Positions 2,101 through 64,000 of a DNA stretch of 64,000 nt are shown piece by piece (position 1 is the stretch's first letter; every line of letters starts with the position of its first letter). The position numbers and the translations under genes are program-made. Under the pieces are notes generated by a model, which was not told the DNA's origin, did no database searches, and was given only the letters and a program-made list of their open reading frames with translations. Source of the DNA: Psococerastis gibbosa (lineage: Eukaryota > Arthropoda > Insecta > Psocodea > Psocidae); the NCBI GenBank assembly GCA_963971405.1, contig OZ020487.1, positions 21,871,371 to 21,935,370 of the forward strand, given 5' to 3'.

Positions 2101-2285
2101 GTTACAATATTAGCCTATGTTTAGAATAAAATATTCTAGCGAACATAGTCTCCTTAGAATTACAACGATTTCGCACCCAAACTGTCTGTTTTGATGTGCA
2201 CTTTCATCCTCTTACAATGCAGACAACGGACCATCCCGCAATACGCAATATACCGTAACTTGCACAGTCGCGTAGGCTATATAAT

Positions 2286-3099
2286 AAATTTTGCACGGTT
2301 TTTCAGGCTGAAGTCTGTGCCATTGCTGAGTGCTTAAGGGAAATTCTGAGAATGGAATATGAGAATAAGACCATTCACATTTTTTCTGATAGCCAGGCAG
2401 CTATTAAAGCTCTGGATTCTTACTGTACTAAATCAAAGTTAGTACGGGATTGTAAACAGCTCCTACTCAGAGTAAGTAAAAATAATAAACTTAAGTTGGA
2501 GTGGGTGCCGGGACACTCTGGAGTAGAGGGAAATGAACGAGCCGATGCATTAGCAAATATAGGTTCGGACTCAATATTTGTTGGACCAGAGCCAACCTGT
2601 GGTATATCCTATGGAAGTGTACGCACTATAGTTGACAGATGGATCCAGACCAAGAAAATTGAATCCTGGCACAATATGACAGAAAAACGAAGTCTAAAAA
2701 GACTTGGAATAAAACCATCAAAAAAACTTACCCAAAATTTGCTATTACTTGGCAGATTAGAAATAAGGAATATTGTTGGTTTGCTCACAGGGCACTGCCA
2801 CCTAAGGCATCATCTGTATAAACTCAAAGTCCACACGGGCAGTAGAGAATGTAGATGGTGTGAAATGGAGGACGAAACAGCAGAGCACGTTCTCTTAGAA
2901 TGTGAAGCTCTGGCCAAAAACCGTTTCAGGATACTGGGAATACCAGGGTCAGAAACGAAGACGATTCGTGAAGATCCAGTAGGAAAAACCCGCTCTTTCA
3001 TCAAGAAAGTGGGTATATTCCAGACATGAATCTCCATGACAAAGCGGCTGCAATAGATCTCAAAGGTCGACGCAACGAACCTTACCTTAAGGAGGCACC

Positions 3100-17128: not shown

Positions 17129-20100
17129 TTACTTCTTGCAATGGATCATAACTTTCAAGGCATTGGCAGTCTTTGCGGTCTCAAAAGCTTCAATGGTCTC
17201 CTCCAGTTGGTAGTTGTGGGTGATGAGTTGCTTCACGTCGGCTTTGCCATCGGCAACAAGTGCAAGTGCGATGGGGTAGCTGCAAACAATAACCAATCAA
17301 TGAATCAGACTATAGTTTACACGCGTCTCTGATCATAGCGCAAGATGTGAACATGATTTCCTCCTAATATCGAGTAGTTCTCCACAGTTGTTCCACAATA
17401 CTTTTCATAGCATTACATCTTAGCCTATATAGATTTGAAGCCCGGCTCAATTTCATCATTTAAATTTACAAAGCTTCAAATCACATCAGTAAAAGACGCA
17501 AATAATTGTTATCATAATAATTAACTTAATAATAATCCTTGCTCCCTTCAATATGTATTTGTATTTTACTTACTCATTGGCGTAGCGGAAGCTTCCCATA
17601 ATCTTGAGTTCCTTTACTAGAGCTTTCACTAAGGCAGCTTTAACTTCCCCTGTGCCCATTCCAACAAGCACAACGGTGCCGCCAGGCTTTGTCGCCTAAA
17701 AATGGAATTATTATATTTTATCATACAATGAATAATAGTTAATTGAGCATGGCTTATTAAGTAGGAAGAGTTTGGACTGCATTTGCTCATTTTGCTGGTA
17801 TTTCTTCTATTTTCAACAACTAACTTATAGCTGCTTGGCACTGCAGAACTAATGTTATTTTGAAAATTACAATTTAGAGTGATTTATCTGATTGCTTTTA
17901 GGCTGAACGAATTATAAGTGAGAGCCTGGTAAGATAATTAGTCCGGCCCGAGCATCAGCCGAAGTTCTGAAAGATGACAAGCGTAGACAGTATTTGATGT
18001 TATGCGGATAACATACACCTATCTAAGCTAGATAGAACCTCCTAATATGTTCTCATCAAGCTATTCAAATCGAATCGTTACAGTAGGTACACTATTTCCG
18101 TTAGCGTCGTATAGTATTTTTCATAATCGTATCGAAATAAGCTTCAGTGAAACGTACTTGGAGAGCCAATCGGACAGATCCTTCGAATCCAGAACAGTCG
18201 ATTGTTTTATTGGGCTCTTCTCCAATAGCTGCTAACACGTGAGCGGCTGTAGTCTCCTCATTGTCGTCGGGCTTGACTAAGATTGTGTAGTTGGCGCCAA
18301 ACTTTTTGGCGGCGTCCAAACGGCTGGACTGAATGTCTGTGATAGTGACAGTGCTGGCTCCCATTGCTTTTGCGGCTAAAAGTGTAACAATGCCGATGGT
18401 ACCTGCACCAGTGATTAAAACATTGTCACCGAGAGCTACTCCGGCCTTCCTGCAGCAATGAACACCGACAGAAAGAGGTTCAAGCAGTGCTCCTTCTTCA
18501 AGACTGACGTGATTGGGAAGTCTGCAAATAAGAAATTATTATTAGAAGGCTTCAAAAAATAAAAAAATCTCTTGTTGAGGAATAGCATGCGGTAGATAGA
18601 TTTCCCTGCTATTTTCACTCGTGTTGAGGATGGTTTTATGCGTGCTCAAATTCATTAATTTAAAAATTAATCAAATACTCTACTACTCAATCTTTTAAAG
18701 CTTTTCTTTCATTGAATGAAACGTAGGCAGAGAAATATACTACTCCTGCCCATAATTATTATAATTTTATATTTTTTAATGTTATAATTTAAATGTTGAA
18801 GTTATTTTACTCAATGCACAGAACAGTCTTCTGAAGTAAACGTTCGAATCTTAACAATGGTTTAAGTTTAGGTCATATATTGACGTACTTAAAGCAGAAA
18901 TCAGCAGGATGGACGTAGTAACGTGAAAGATTGCCATGAACGGGAGGTGTAGCGCAGAAGACGATATCTTTACACAAATGGTAGCTTCCCTCCTTGCAGA
19001 ATGAACAGTAGCGACAGGGTACACCAGGCTCAATGGCAACGCGATCCCCTAAAAATATGTAACCAGGTTAGGTATTCACTATATCGAATTAATGAAATTA
19101 AAACTACGGAAGAGCTTCATTGCCCCGTTCACCATTTCATTTCCCATAATTTTTCTACAATATTTTTCAAGACAAGTGTCAAATAACAGGTTGTCTAACA
19201 GACGGTATAACACTAGAGGTGATTTCCTTCTTGAAGTCCCTCTCCACCACACTGATATTTTTCACAAGTCTTTTACTGTCTCGTCTGCCGTACTCTGGAA
19301 CTCCATCCCAACTGAAATTAGGGAATCTAGAACCGTTGCTTCCTTCAGGTCGAGTTTAAGAGCTCACTTTATGACTGGTATGCGATTGTGATGTAGGTGT
19401 AGGTACCTTACATTTTAATTTTATTTCAGTGTTTACACCTGTACTGTATTGACGCATGTGTATGATGGCTTGTCATCCCAGTTGAGTGTAAGAGAGACTG
19501 AGAGGGCCGTAAGGCCCTAACTTCGCTGGGATAGCAGGTTTTCAATGTTGTAGTGTTTTTTTTAATAATAAAAAGTCAATAAATAAGTAAATAAATCTCC
19601 AGTTTTTCAACAAAAATTGCTTATCCATGTGAAACACAAATTTATTAATCTCTTGCTCGCTAATAACCTTTTTTGAGAGATGTCACGCTCTTTCCAACTT
19701 CGGCGACTGTCCCGCTAGCCTCGTGGCCACAGATCATGGGCTCCTTGACAATGAAGTCTCCAATGCGACCCTTGGTCAAGTAATGCACATCGGACCCGCA
19801 AATTCCGACGCAACCCATCTCCAACAGAACTTCGTCATCTTTGGGTACGGGGATTGGTCTTTGTTCCTAAAATTACGATGACAGTTTTAATATTATGAAG
19901 TCGCTATGTCAAACATTACATTATTAGACCTATATTATTTTGGGAAGTTGAAACGAAGTTGCAATTTTCGTAATTCTTTGAATTGACGGCGCATTAAAAA
20001 GTGCTTTATTTGTGGCAAGTGATGGTATAATAAAAATACATTTCCAGAAATTAATGTTACAATTTTTGTACAAATATCATTTACAGCAATGCAACGCCCG

Positions 20101-26095: not shown

Positions 26096-27149
26096 TATTA
26101 TCTTCTTCTTCAGTCGGTACTCCCCTGCTCCGAAGGAATATATTTATAAACATACAAATACACCATTGGAATGCAAAAATCCTGTGGGCCCCCAAGTCAA
26201 TAAAGTTGACGGGGGCTCGCACAGTAAACGCTATAGATGATGCAATATTTTTTTCTATTCACGTCTGTATTAGCAAAGAACTTAGTTTGAATTTCAAATT
26301 TGATCATACAATTTAAAATTATAAATTAATAAGAATGCCTTCTTAGTCTGCCTAAACATTGTTTTAAATGCAATTCAAATGGGATTGCTGGAAATGACTT
26401 TTTTTGCGTCATTTTTTAGAAATTTTAGAAAGTTTGTTCCACTCGTGTTTAATGGGTGAAGGGGTGAATTAGACAATATGTATTTATACTCGTTTGAAAC
26501 CTCTATTCATGCTGCTTCTAATGAGGCATTAAAAATTATTTCGGTTGAAAATTGAAGCTGTGGAATTTTTGAAGTTACACTAAGAGAAATATTGGGCTGT
26601 TTTCAAGTATCGGACACCCATTTTTCGGTCCAACAACAAAATTTCGAAAACTTATCGTAGATTACTACACATTACTGCACTTAACGAATTTTTTACTTCA
26701 TAAATTTATTTCCAGCAACTGTTAATTGTTTGGAGTAACTAAACGTTTGTAGGTTAAAGCTATGGGTATCGACTAGTTACTCGCTGAATGTTTATACTGA
26801 CTGTTGCATAAACATTTAAAAAAAAAAAATTAACATACATATTTCTGCAAAAAATGCCAGTAATGGGCACCGTAGTCCCAGTATTGGGCACCCCAGTTTT
26901 GGTCAGTGTAAGGAATAATAAAAACTGCAATTTATACTAAAGTTTGACTGCCTGAGGCAATCCTTTATTATAATAAGGAATAATATGTGACAAATTCCCT
27001 CAAATTTCATATTCCCCTAAATAAGTTGGTCTTTGAGAAGGCATATTTATGACCATGCCATTGACTGATTGGGGATTGCATCTTCTTGCTCTTTGTTATC
27101 CTCATTAACAATATTACTATCAGAGGACTCATCGTGCAATGATATAGCA

Positions 27150-57800: not shown

Positions 57801-60100
57801 ACCGACAGAAAGCACGAACAATTAACAGCAAATCAAATTAATAGAGATTGCTTATGAGCGCCCATTTCTAGCTTCTGTACACTATTCCATCAGGTGCCCA
57901 TTACTGGCAGGTTTGCTAAAATAAGATTCCAGTAATGGGCACCCCCCCCCCTTAAACACTTAAAAAATATGAACTTGACTTTTAAGTTTCGGTCCGATAA
58001 CAAAATTTCGAAAACTTATCGTAGATTACTACACATAACTACACTTAACGAATTTTTGACCTCATAAATTTATTTCCAGCAACTGTTAATTGTTTGGAGT
58101 AACTATACGTTTATAGGTTAAAGCTATGGGTATGGACTAGTTACTCGCTGAATGTTTACTGACTGTTGCATAAACTTTTTTAAAAAAAAAATAACATACA
58201 TATTTCTGCAAAAAAAGCCAGTAATGGGCACCGTAGTCCCAGTATTGGACACCCCAGTTTTGGTCAGTGTAAGGAATAATAAAAACTGCAATTTCTACTC
58301 AAGTTTGACTGCCTGAGGCAATCCTTTATTATAATAAGGAATAATATATGACAAATTCCCTCAAATTTCATATTCCCCTAAATAAGTTGGTCTTTGAGAA
58401 GGCATATTTATGACCTTGCCATTGACTGATTGGGGATTGCATCTTCCTGCTCTTTGTCATCCTCATTAACAATATTACTATCAGAATACTCATCGTGCAA
58501 TGATATGACTTAATCATCCTCGTCATCAGTTTCGTCGTACTATCAGAGGACTCATCGTGCAATGATATAGCTTAATCATCCTCGTCATCAGTTTTGTCGT
58601 ATGTGAGGCATATATCAAACTTCTTTTTCGTGGCTTTTCTCCCTTTCCTGGTTGCCTTTTCGCCTGCTCCTCCATTCCTCGGGACCTTTTCTCTTTCGCT
58701 TCTGCAGCCTCACGGTCCTTCTTCTCGCTATTGGCTTAATTCTCTTCATCCCTTTTTAATAAAATTATGTTCCTCACTCATTGACATTCCCTGCTGCACT
58801 GCAGCTCCGTGTATGAAGAAAATATTTTTTTCTTGCTTGGACTCATTTTAATTAATTGGAACCGACAGAAAGCACGAACAATTAACAGCAAATCAAATTA
58901 ATAGAGATTGCTTATGAGTGCCCATTTCTAGCTTCTGTACACTATTCCATGAGGTGCCCATTACTGGCTGGTTTGCTAAAATACGATTCCAGTAATGGCC
59001 ACCCTCCTTCAACACTTAAATAATATAAAATTGACCTTTAAGTTATGGATAAGTTAAAATTAACATATTTGTGAGTATGGCGAACGACTTGCAATACAAA
59101 AAAAATTAAAAGTTTTCTGGTAGGAGATGGATAAAAATATTACTTACCTTAACCTCGTGCGTGACTTTGCAAACTTTTTACGCGCCAGTTGCCATGTTTG
59201 TTCTAGCCCCTTCAGAGATGCCAACATAATTATTTCTACTGCCACAACGATATTTATAAGAGCTTTTCTGTCTAATTTGGCGCAAAATTCAAAAGAAAAG
59301 ATCGAAACTTAAAGATTTTATGACGCTATTCGTATGAAAGTGCCCATTACTGGACGGGACTGGACCTCTTGCATGATCACTACAAACATAGCATGGGCTG
59401 AAAGAGGAACAATAGACGATGACATGGGTACAATTTAAATTAAGAATGCCTTCTTAATACGCCTAAAAAATTGCTTTAAACCCGCCCATGCAATTTAAAT
59501 GGGATTGCTGCAAATGAATTTTTTCGCGTCATTTTTTAGAAATTTTAGAAAGTTTGTGGTCCACTCGTGCTTAAGGGGTGATGGGGTGAATTTGAAAATA
59601 TGTATTTATACTGGTTTGAAACCTCTATTCATAATGCTTCTAAACAGGCATTAAAAATTAATTTCGGTCGGAAATTGCAGGCTGTGGAATTTTTGAAGTT
59701 ACACTGAGAGAAATATTGGGCTGTTTTCAAGTAGGCCTATCGGACACCCATTTTTTGGTCCGATAACAAAATTTCGAAAACTTACCGTAGATTACTACTC
59801 ATTACTACACTTATCAAATTTTTTCTTCATAAATTTATTTCCAGCAACCGTTAATTGTTTGGAGTAACTACACGTTTGTAGGTTAAAGCTATGGGTATGG
59901 ACTAGTTACTCGCTGAATGTTTACTGACTGTTGCATCAACTTTTTTTTAAAAATAATTGACATACATATTTCTGAAAAAAATGCCAGTAATGGGCACCGT
60001 TGCCCCTGTATTGGGCACCCCAGTTTTGGTCAGTGTAAGGAATAATAAAAACTGCAATTTATACTCAAGTTTGACTGCCTGAGGCAATCCTTTATTAAAA

Positions 60101-61080
60101 AATTTAAAATCATATTGCTTTAATACGACATCTATATTCGCAAATATGGATCGAAAGTAAAAAATTATATATTACATAAAAAACTACTTTGCTTTGCTAT
60201 TGTAGGGAAAAATAACCAATTCCCCTGGGGGGGGGGGGGTTATGATTAAATTATGACTTTGGAAAATAAAATGCAAATACATATTTGTATATGTGAGGTA
60301 TAGACGGATGCATACGTTAGCGTCCAAATAAATTCAAACCTCATTTTTGCTATTCGTTAAAAGTTGTCATGAAATTGTATTTAAAAGTAAACGAAATGGG
60401 GAAAGAGGTTTCTTTTGTACAAGTATACTCAAATTTGCTGGATTTCTTTAGGTTAATTGATTACCCGTGTCAAACGGTTGCATGACTAATAAATTGATTT
60501 GAATATTTTCGATTAGATTGGGTTCTCCCTGATAAAGTGTTTTGTCTGGAAGTCATGCTGGATGGAGGATATATTTCATTTAAAATAATATAATATGTTA
60601 TGTTGTGTATAATCTATGATCTGATCTATGTAGGTTGCATTTATTATAATAAAAATGTAAACGCAATGCGTGATGGTGCGTATGCGGGTTATGCGGCTTA
60701 TGATGGTAGGGGGTGTCCCATCTGGCCCATGCAATGGTCGGAGCCGCTGGATACCCAGTGCCCAGTGCGGATGCTGGGCTCATGCGGATGGCATGTTACT
60801 CGGGGAGTTAAAAAATTGAACAGCTTCGTAAATATTATAGTTACAAAAGAAATAAGTATACTTTTACTACTAAATACCTACATGAGTATTCCAAAAATGG
60901 AGTTTCATTGAATTTTTGGCTTTTGAAGCCTTGAAATATTAGAGTGAAGAAAAAAATAAGGGCACTTTTATTACAAAAAACCTACATGCGTATTCTAAAA
61001 ATGAAGTCCGAAATAAAATTTGGTAATTGATGACATTGATAACTTTTCGTTCAAGTTAACCAAATTATTCTAACAGATGC
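60101..61080. other. No gene recognised; right flank of the array
   Basis: Unique AT-rich sequence follows the abrupt array end. It contains a G run (about 60227-60238) and a 103-codon frame at 60600-60911 without signatures. Confidence 0.5.
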
Positions 61081-61087
61081 GACGTTT

Positions 61088-62390
61088 AGTTATCGTACCA
61101 AAAGTCCTTGAACTCTAGTCCTTATACTCTAGTAAAAAATTCGAACAGTTATCGTAGTTGCGTTACGCCTGTTTATCACAATTAACTTCCGAAAAGTTAT
61201 CGTAAGACCCATGTAAGATATCGGAGACTAAAAAAATGTTATCGGAGTGGTCAACCCCCATTTAAATTATCGGAGCAAGTTATCGTAGTTGAAGGCACAT
61301 GCGCAGTTCGGAATTTCCCCTGCGTCACCGGCCCGCGCATCTTGCATTGACGGACATACCTGACTACCTTCAGTCCTTCATTCCTTCCCTTAGGGCTCCC
61401 TCAAGTAATAGTTGGGGCTGTTTGGAAGCGCATCATTATTTCATATGTCTAGTGTCTCAAGTGAGTCAAGTCTTATATTTAAGGCAGTAGAAGAATTATT
61501 TCTCTGCATTTTGATATACGATTGACTGGTCACATAATTATAATGCATCCGCATCAAAATAAAGAGAAATATTTCATCTAGTGTCTAAAATACTTTTATA
61601 GCTCTTGCCTGTAGTGAATATTTCCCGTGAAATTCTTTCTTAGCTTAAGCCAAAAAGCTGGACTAGAAAATAGTCTTAATTTGGTTGTTCAAAATTGATT
61701 GTATCTAGGCTATTACGTTCCCAATTGGCCAATATACTGTTTATAGGGTACATCATTTTAATCCTATATACAGTTATACATTGCATTATATTGTTGAAGT
61801 ATTCCTTTCAGGTGGCTGCAGGGTGAAGTAACGTGCATAGATAGCGCCCAGTGTTGCAACGTGCTGCATCTATCGGGAGGAGAGAGGAGAGGGGGCGATG
61901 AAGGGCGGCGTTTGGATATATATTATATTTAGGGGGCTCTGGTATATATATATATATATATATGCGTGTATTAATGCAATTCATGTACCAGATCCTGCCT
62001 ATATAGATGTACTGCCAGCGCTGCCGCTGTCCTCCCCCCCCCCCCCGGGGATGCAGCTACGATAGGGTATCGTAGGTAGAAGCAGAGCTTAACGATGGAT
62101 TATCGGAGAATGTATAGGTCTACGATAACTAGAGAACGATAGGTTATCGGAGCAAATTCTAGGCCAACGTTAACTAGAAAACGATATGTTATCGGAGCCA
62201 CTGCCCTTGAAGATTTAGGGTCCGATAACTAAAAGGAGTTTTAACTCATATAAGTTATTGTAGTGAATTATCGGAGCGTATAAGTATCGGAGTTATGGAA
62301 GACGATGAGTTAACGAAGAGGATTTATAGGAGTACCGATCCGTTAACTTATAATACCAACTACATTGTCACGTATTTATCGGATCAATTC
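61088..62390. promoter_or_regulatory. Two clusters of TATCG/CGATA motifs (consensus TTATCGKAG)
   Basis: About 19 TATCG or CGATA pentamers occur in roughly 0.55 kb, where about one is expected by chance. Seven lie at 61090-61288, all in one orientation; twelve lie at 62059-62380 in both orientations. The 0.76-kb spacer between them has none. Exact TTATCGGAG is at 61239, 61267, 62100, 62144, 62189 and 62268. TTATCGTAG is at 61149 and 61280, with its complement at 62120. CTACGATA-GGG-TATCGTAG at 62057-62075 is a perfect palindrome with 8-bp arms. Such clusters could be subterminal transposase sites or BEAF/DREF-type chromatin-protein sites; neither is proven. Confidence 0.6.
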
Positions 62391-62399
62391 CGATTATTA

Positions 62400-63065
62400 T
62401 ACGTAGCATTTCTCTCAGTGATATACTTCTTTACGATCGAGAGTGAATTTTGAGGATTCGCGCACAGTTCACAGAAAAGTTCACAGAAGAAGTTCACAGA
62501 ATGATGCTGCCATTTTGTACCCGTGTTTTAGTTCTATCCGTACGGATTATTTCTTGATATAAATCAAAATATTTGTATTTAATATAATTATTAACACTAA
62601 ATATTATTAAATTATTACTGTTAAATATTTATTAATACCTAACCTAACCTGGTTATTTAATATTTACAAAATAAAGAAATACATTTTATAAAAAGTTTGT
62701 GATAAAAATTACAATTGAACGTCAAATGTGTTTTAGTTCTATCCGTACGTATTATTTTTATTTTTAATGATGGCAAAGAAGTATAAGTACATAAGTACAC
62801 ACATCCACTTTTTTTTACTCTATGCATGTAATTCGGAAGAGACTGGTCTATAAATGCTGATTTAACGGGCATAGTCGCCATCTTAGGTTACGGAAGGGTA
62901 GTCAGGGGGAGTTGGAACCCATTGATGTATCGGCTAAAATGTAAAACGGAACACTTGCCTCGGTAGTGTCTCGGTTTCGATTCGATCCGATGACACAATT
63001 TCCTGGCTTCTGTGTAAATTGCCCCATGCTGTCTGTAATTCAAAATGAGCGTCATCCATGAGTGC
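62400..63065. other. No gene recognised
   Basis: AT-rich. A 20-bp string TTTTAGTTCTATCCGTACG occurs at about 62526 and again at about 62731, about 205 bp apart, followed by (T/G)ATTATTT. The remainder has no structure I could identify. Confidence 0.45.
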
Positions 63066-63072
63066 GAAAAAC

Positions 63073-63215
63073 AAGATGGCGCGTAACCAAGATGGCGCGT
63101 AACCATGATGGCGCGTAACCATGATAGCGCGTAACCATGATGGCGAGTAACCAAGATGGCGCGTAACCATGATGGCGCGTAACCATGATGGCGAGTAACC
63201 AAGATGGCGCGTAAC
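63073..63215. repeat. 16-bp tandem repeat, about 9 copies, with ATGGCG core
   Basis: Units of A(A/T)GATGGCGCGTAACC repeat nine times, head to tail, with few substitutions. AAGATGGCG resembles the YY1/Pho recognition core (ATGGC/GCCAT). The period is not a multiple of three, so the repetitive open frames on the minus strand are by-products. A related GCCATCTTAGGTTACGG lies inverted at about 62876. Confidence 0.85.
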
Positions 63216-63219
63216 AAGA

Positions 63220-64000
63220 TTTTTCTCCCTACGTCGATGAAGAAGTTTCCCTTCAATAATTTCTTTATTTTTCTGAATTTATACACATTTTTTCCATAGT
63301 CAGGAAATCCCCATACCTAAGGGCGCATGGGGAAACACCCAATGCCCTACCGAATTTACCCTACGTATAAAAAAGTAACATGCACAAATAATCTAAGTTA
63401 GTTATGGGAGTCTAGCAGGTATTTCATAAAATCAGGAACAAAATTTCCAATTGATTTTTTTGATCTAGCTTCAACATGGACATGTTTACATTCGTTATAG
63501 GATATCCCTCGTCTGAGGTATTAAAGCATTGCCAGTTAGGCAGAAGGCAGATGGATATTGACTGTTCTATTACGTACTGTATATTGGGTAGACTTAAATA
63601 ATGAAAATCTGCCTTCCACAGTCTAGTCTAATTTTTCTTCTTCTAATGCGAGGTATGGTGTGTATTTTTCTTTTATTATTGTTCTACTTCAAAAGTTGAA
63701 TACTAATATGCAATCGACGGCGTATTCTAATCTTTGTTCTACTTCTAATGAGAAGCACTACACAACTGCAATAGCCAATAGGCTAATAATGTACCTGCAG
63801 CAAACAAAAATTACATTCCTTGTTAAATGCAGATCTAGGTCCTATGAGTAATACCTAACCATAATAACATATGATAACTTTACGATATTTCGATATTGCT
63901 TAAATTAAACAATAAAATACCATTGCATTGGCATATATACATATAGGACCAATACAAATTCCACTGTTATAATTCTCAATAATACAATATGGGTTAATTG
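63220..64000. other. No gene recognised
   Basis: AT-rich sequence to the end of the window, with only short open frames. Confidence 0.5.

Follow-up and report, generated by a model that had tools for sequence, protein, structure and literature searches.

Transposons are filed under CACTA/EnSpm (CMC) by CACTR or CAC...GTG ends, a target duplication of 2 or 3 bp, arrays of a short motif in both subterminal regions and, in autonomous copies, a transposase of the superfamily. Animal elements of this kind, such as ENS1_Cis of Ciona and the CMC-NA miniature elements, are described as having 5'-CAC...GTG-3' ends, 2-bp duplications and non-autonomous copies (PMC6004678), and the CACTA-related SmTRC1-type TRC elements of animals also make 2-bp duplications, as reported for seven of 14 copies in S. 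mansoni (PMC1636069). The maize Spm/En and soybean Tgmt elements combine a short terminal inverted repeat (TIR; 13 bp in Tgmt) with repeated subterminal motifs; TNPA recognizes the subterminal repeats of Spm/En, and supply in trans has been described for CACTA-type elements (PMC2613891). In the literature drawn on here, binding data for subterminal repeats come from plant elements only. The CMCT lineages as a whole are described as having 5'-CA..TG-3' ends in most cases and duplications of 2-5 bp (PMC12730594).

Here we describe a motif field from Psococerastis gibbosa, located in a window of 64,000 nucleotides (contig OZ020487.1, positions 21,871,371 to 21,935,370; all coordinates below are window positions unless a contig is named). 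According to our analysis, this field is part of a 2.7-kb non-autonomous DNA transposon relic that is dispersed in the host genome. The family resembles the animal CMC elements in its CAC...GTG ends, 2-bp duplications and non-autonomous copies but differs in that no transposase was found. A short TIR and repeated subterminal motifs are shared with Spm/En and Tgmt; however, the duplication is 2 bp long instead of the 3 bp of Tgmt (PMC2613891), and whereas those elements carry genes, none were found in the present copies, which possess an extra internal array. In comparison with the TRC elements, those of Tribolium and Aedes start with CCC and the present family with CACTG; furthermore, SmTRC1 carries a Transposase_21 ORF, and none such was found here (PMC1636069).

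Motif Field of the Window

A sequence-only reading of the window had drawn attention to about 19 TATCG/CGATA pentamers at 61088-62390, nine of them belonging to exact TTATCGKAG sites on either strand. The dense field is real. We counted 20 pentamers, compared with a mean of 4.09 and a maximum of 13 in 1000 dinucleotide shuffles (0/1000 reached 20), and all nine TTATCGKAG sites were recovered against 0.04 expected from the shuffles (0/1000 reached nine), so that the shuffled-sequence test proposed by that reading places the counts far above the local composition. No other 5-mer made up of three or more different letters was as strongly clustered as CGATA within 1.3 kb anywhere in the window.

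The sites are arranged in two blocks, whose orientations had been described correctly. In the left block (61090-61288, or 61091-61281 in the site count), all seven TATCG lie on the plus strand, and the right block (62057-62389, or 62060-62377 in the site count) has 12 TATCG/CGATA sites, seven on the plus and five on the minus strand. The 8-bp palindrome reported in the right block does have 8-bp arms, but it is interrupted (CTACGATA-GGG-TATCGTAG), and the 0.76-kb spacer, which had been taken to be empty, contains a single TATCG at 61871-61875 on the plus strand. A 45-bp tandem repeat (2.4 copies; 62091-62198, plus strand; TRF), missed earlier, lies within the right block, and therefore the sites of this block are not all independent. 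The spacer also has a hairpin-forming inverted repeat with 40-nt arms (61476-61592; z -5.4), which aligns with nine other copies of the transposon and is perhaps a nested older element.

Extent of the Transposon Copy

A search of the host genome (409 Mb, 68 contigs) and alignment of copies, the check that had been suggested for the field, revealed dispersed relatives and set the boundaries at 59702 and 62420. The window copy (2,719 bp) bears a 13-bp TIR at both ends: the left one (59702-59714, plus strand) matches CACTGAGAGAAAT exactly, and the right one (62408-62420) matches it exactly on the minus strand. Homologous copies have the same right end and, if intact, the same left TIR; the inverted right end of intact copies reads ATTTCTCTCAGTG, matching the left-end CACTGAGAGAAAT. 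An unrecognized transposon with subterminal arrays had been one of the two readings offered for the field. Its kind was right, but the element spans 2.7 kb instead of about 1.3 kb, and of the two blocks thought to be subterminal only the right one is so; the left block is internal, at about 1.39-1.59 kb from the left end. Because this end lies 1.4 kb outside the field as originally delimited, our first scan, which looked around the field for inverted repeats flanked by target duplications, gave nothing convincing.

The genuine left subterminal array is mostly missing from the window copy. A remnant at 59702-59802 (plus strand; C12:21931072-21931172) matches left-end positions 1-95 of locus L282 and includes a TATCG at 59738 (plus strand) and a CGATA at 59761 (minus strand). 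What follows the remnant in an intact left subterminal region is replaced here by tandem-array sequence (59803-60098), similar to the array that extends up to 60100, and in seven of the 14 fetched loci compared, the similarity of the element to the window begins exactly at 60099, a point that coincides with the end of this array.

The tandem array itself (26320-60100) is composed of units that are mostly 84-99% identical, with one common period of about 3.3 kb. It holds seven left TIRs of the family, at 26578 (one mismatch), 28122, 32194, 33368, 35670, 44960 and 59702. Since the upstream flank ...GAAGTTA is common to six of them (six inspected), a single insertion, flank included, has apparently been multiplied. 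A protein tail on the minus strand is likewise repeated in the array. As a candidate for the partner transposase this tail was rejected: a relative at C15:15466636 adjoins a DDE_1 (pogo/Tigger-type) ORF, and among the best 150 of 219 candidates, the places outside the array never coincide with family matches.

Downstream, a repeat of about 365 bp (62422-62786) with 17-bp imperfect inverted ends (TATACTTCTTTACGATC) and at least 26 other copies is probably a miniature inverted-repeat element inserted beside the right end of the transposon. At 63072-63220, a 16-bp unit, CAAGATGGCGCGTAAC, which we take to bear a YY1/Pho-like core, is repeated 9.4 times. Elsewhere in the window, an exon-like ORF on the minus strand (18104-18535) is similar to sorbitol dehydrogenase/ketose reductase, and an RNase H-like ORF at 2259-3026 is probably derived from a LINE.

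Copies, Ends and Target Sites

With positions 60800-62800 as a query, at least 13 other copies were found, the main pieces of which are 81-92% identical to it (best 40 of 299 candidates scored). Eight of these reach a common right edge at window positions 62418-62424. Five copies that lack the right end have no alternative one in common. The right-end search gave 19 loci including the window (all 19 candidates scored), and searches with the left end and the interior added at least 14 further loci, in which 120 bp or more matched and a right end was not found. The transposon family is dispersed over more than 30 loci. The identity of 85-94% among its six complete copies (6-15% difference) suggests that it is old and decaying.

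Nine copies have two ends, and in eight of them the 2-bp flanks match, the duplication being TA in five (L281, L282, L285, L292/L280 and L293), TT in two (L283 and L247) and AA in one (L291/L284). The window copy is flanked by TA on the left and AT on the right; its left end lies within the tandem array and another repeat starts one base past its right end, so its duplication was likely lost by rearrangement. In the window copy and in seven more of the two-ended copies, each end carries CACTGAGAGAAAT exactly; in the ninth, L293, the two TIRs contain base changes but CACTG/CAGTG is kept.

The joined flanks of six copies were compared with the fetched loci and the window. When those of L283 are closed up over one TT, they align at 81-94% over 78-79 query positions with another repeat at five places where it is uninterrupted, three of them in L284 and one each in L245 and L280; the TT is exact in three of the five, and the other two differ by one or two bases at the junction. 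For the remaining five copies, neither the fetched loci nor the window contained an empty site. The ends, the duplications and the empty site support insertion of the element as a unit by cut and paste.

Motif arrays occupy both subterminal regions in four of the six complete copies, with 11-14 sites within 400 bp of the left end (L281 11, L282 14, L283 14, L285 12) and 8-14 within 400 bp of the right end (13, 11, 8 and 14, respectively). The corresponding counts are two and 12 in the window copy and zero and 13 in L247. In all six, the total exceeds the maximum of 500 shuffles, albeit barely in L247 (13 vs. 12). The internal array recurs at a matching place in L282 (at the same distance from the left end as in the window copy), in L281 (1.53-1.72 kb, one site reversed) and in L283 (0.88-1.07 kb). 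It is deleted in L285 and L247, the latter also lacking the left array, and not every array is therefore shown to be needed. Because L285 and L247 nevertheless bear target duplications, the internal block may be dispensable, the alternative being its loss after insertion.

Classification

The first three features of CACTA/EnSpm (CMC) elements listed at the outset occur in the family: CACTGAGAGAAAT provides the ends, the duplication is 2 bp long in eight of the nine two-ended copies, and short-motif arrays are present at both ends of four of the six complete copies. Judged by ends, duplication length and arrays, the family fits a CACTA/EnSpm-like assignment with membership unproven, and since no transposase was found, we call it CACTA-like rather than a proven member. 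In three longer copies (L291 with L284, L280 with L292, and L293), no transposase was seen; the long ORFs considered for this role sit in insertions and resemble, by eye, LINE-type reverse transcriptase instead. A search with PF02992 returned zero matches in the host genome and also zero in all 14 controls.

Two superfamilies were rejected on target sites. Tc1/mariner elements, including pogo, have a strict TA duplication, whereas three of the eight duplications are TT or AA. The hAT elements make an 8-bp duplication, and the flanks of the present copies have only 2 bp in common.

The alternative that survives best concerns the superfamily of the same transposon, which could belong to a group other than CACTA whose ends are CA...TG or whose duplications are short, such as Mirage, Transib, ISL2EU or one not yet described. 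It gains from the filing having to rest on ends, duplication length and arrays with no transposase recovered, and from the ends and duplication lengths published for the CMCT lineages (PMC12730594). However, CACTA elements are the best match for the combination of a CACTG start, 2-bp duplications that include TT and AA as well as TA, and subterminal arrays, and we consider another superfamily rather unlikely.

No description of this family was found in the parts of the literature on the motif and on CACTA elements drawn on here. We regard the family as a new member of a kind of element already known, or possibly as a new lineage within that kind; it may already be catalogued in Repbase or Dfam.

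Genome-Wide Distribution of the Motif

The other reading originally offered for the field was a binding region of chromatin proteins. BEAF- and DREF-type proteins prefer CGATA-core sites. This core is present in the field, the sites are dense and of mixed orientation, and the adjacent 16-bp tandem array presumably bears a YY1/Pho-like core, all of which would suit a regulatory element bound by a BEAF- or DREF-like host chromatin or insulator protein. The genome-wide distribution speaks against it: TTATCGKAG occurs 5296 times on both strands compared with 5672 for the reversed control and is thus not enriched. Close pairs (two TTATCGKAG within 30 bp in the same orientation) were found at 23 places versus nine for the control, and 21 of the 23 lie in copies of the one transposon family (12 loci, window included). 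Most of the 21 fall inside family-search matches, and four (C1:32272087, C1:32273145, C12:34451810 and C12:34451823), each no more than about 2 kb from a right-end match, were added to the family on the strength of their near-identical sequence; the remaining two pairs, C14:38545338 and C19:26904300, had no match in any family search. Clusters therefore recur beyond the window, an absence of which had been named as an argument against the field, and among the pairs of the 9-bp TTATCGKAG the independent clusters at many unrelated loci expected of a BEAF/DREF field were not seen. Accordingly, we regard the chromatin-protein explanation as very improbable.

Paired-motif matches in IMG/VR and in bacterial and archaeal genomes (at least 237 loci) were set aside on motif spacing. 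In the densest of these loci, most intervals between motifs are divisible by 3, as would be seen in coding repeats; in L054, one dense locus of the paired-motif scans, the intervals are mostly 10 bp.

That the cluster is a product of chance or a tandem-repeat artefact has a negligible probability, for although the 45-bp repeat accounts for part of the right block, the left block contains no tandem repeat (TRF), and this explanation is refuted by the shuffle counts together with the recurrence of motif arrays in other transposon copies.

Proposed Mechanism and Meaning

Overall, the field is best explained, with good probability, by a non-autonomous cut-and-paste CACTA/EnSpm-like transposon whose motif is bound by a transposition protein supplied in trans. 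An autonomous partner would have supplied the transposase, which would have cut at the CACTG ends; the same transposase, or a TNPA-like helper, may have bound the repeated TTATCGKAG-like motif, and binding of the motif arrays would have brought the two transposon ends together. A docking site for the transposition protein is the most likely role of the motif, as suggested by where the motif lies, by its confinement to this family and by the TNPA precedent in Spm/En. The conservation data give no independent support for such a role, since no selection on the motif was seen, the motif columns being conserved to the same degree as the other columns (0.943 vs. 0.943; 184 vs. 2356 columns); in a row-by-row comparison, identity was higher where motifs are intact, but this comparison favours sites free of mutations.

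A bolder proposal, to which we give little credence, is that of an undescribed animal CACTA-like lineage in which the CGATA core would be recognized by a BED-type finger and the mostly one-directional internal array would act as a site of self-regulation or a promoter site. If this were true, the CGATA preference of host proteins such as BEAF and DREF could be traceable to the recognition of transposon ends.

In conclusion, the odd motif field has been resolved into a transposon family whose ends are known exactly and whose target duplications and copies have been identified. Similar motif clusters should be checked against repeats before they are taken for regulatory fields. With its internal array and its dense, well-defined site, this family is a concrete case for the question of which protein recognizes the subterminal repeats in animal CACTA-like elements.
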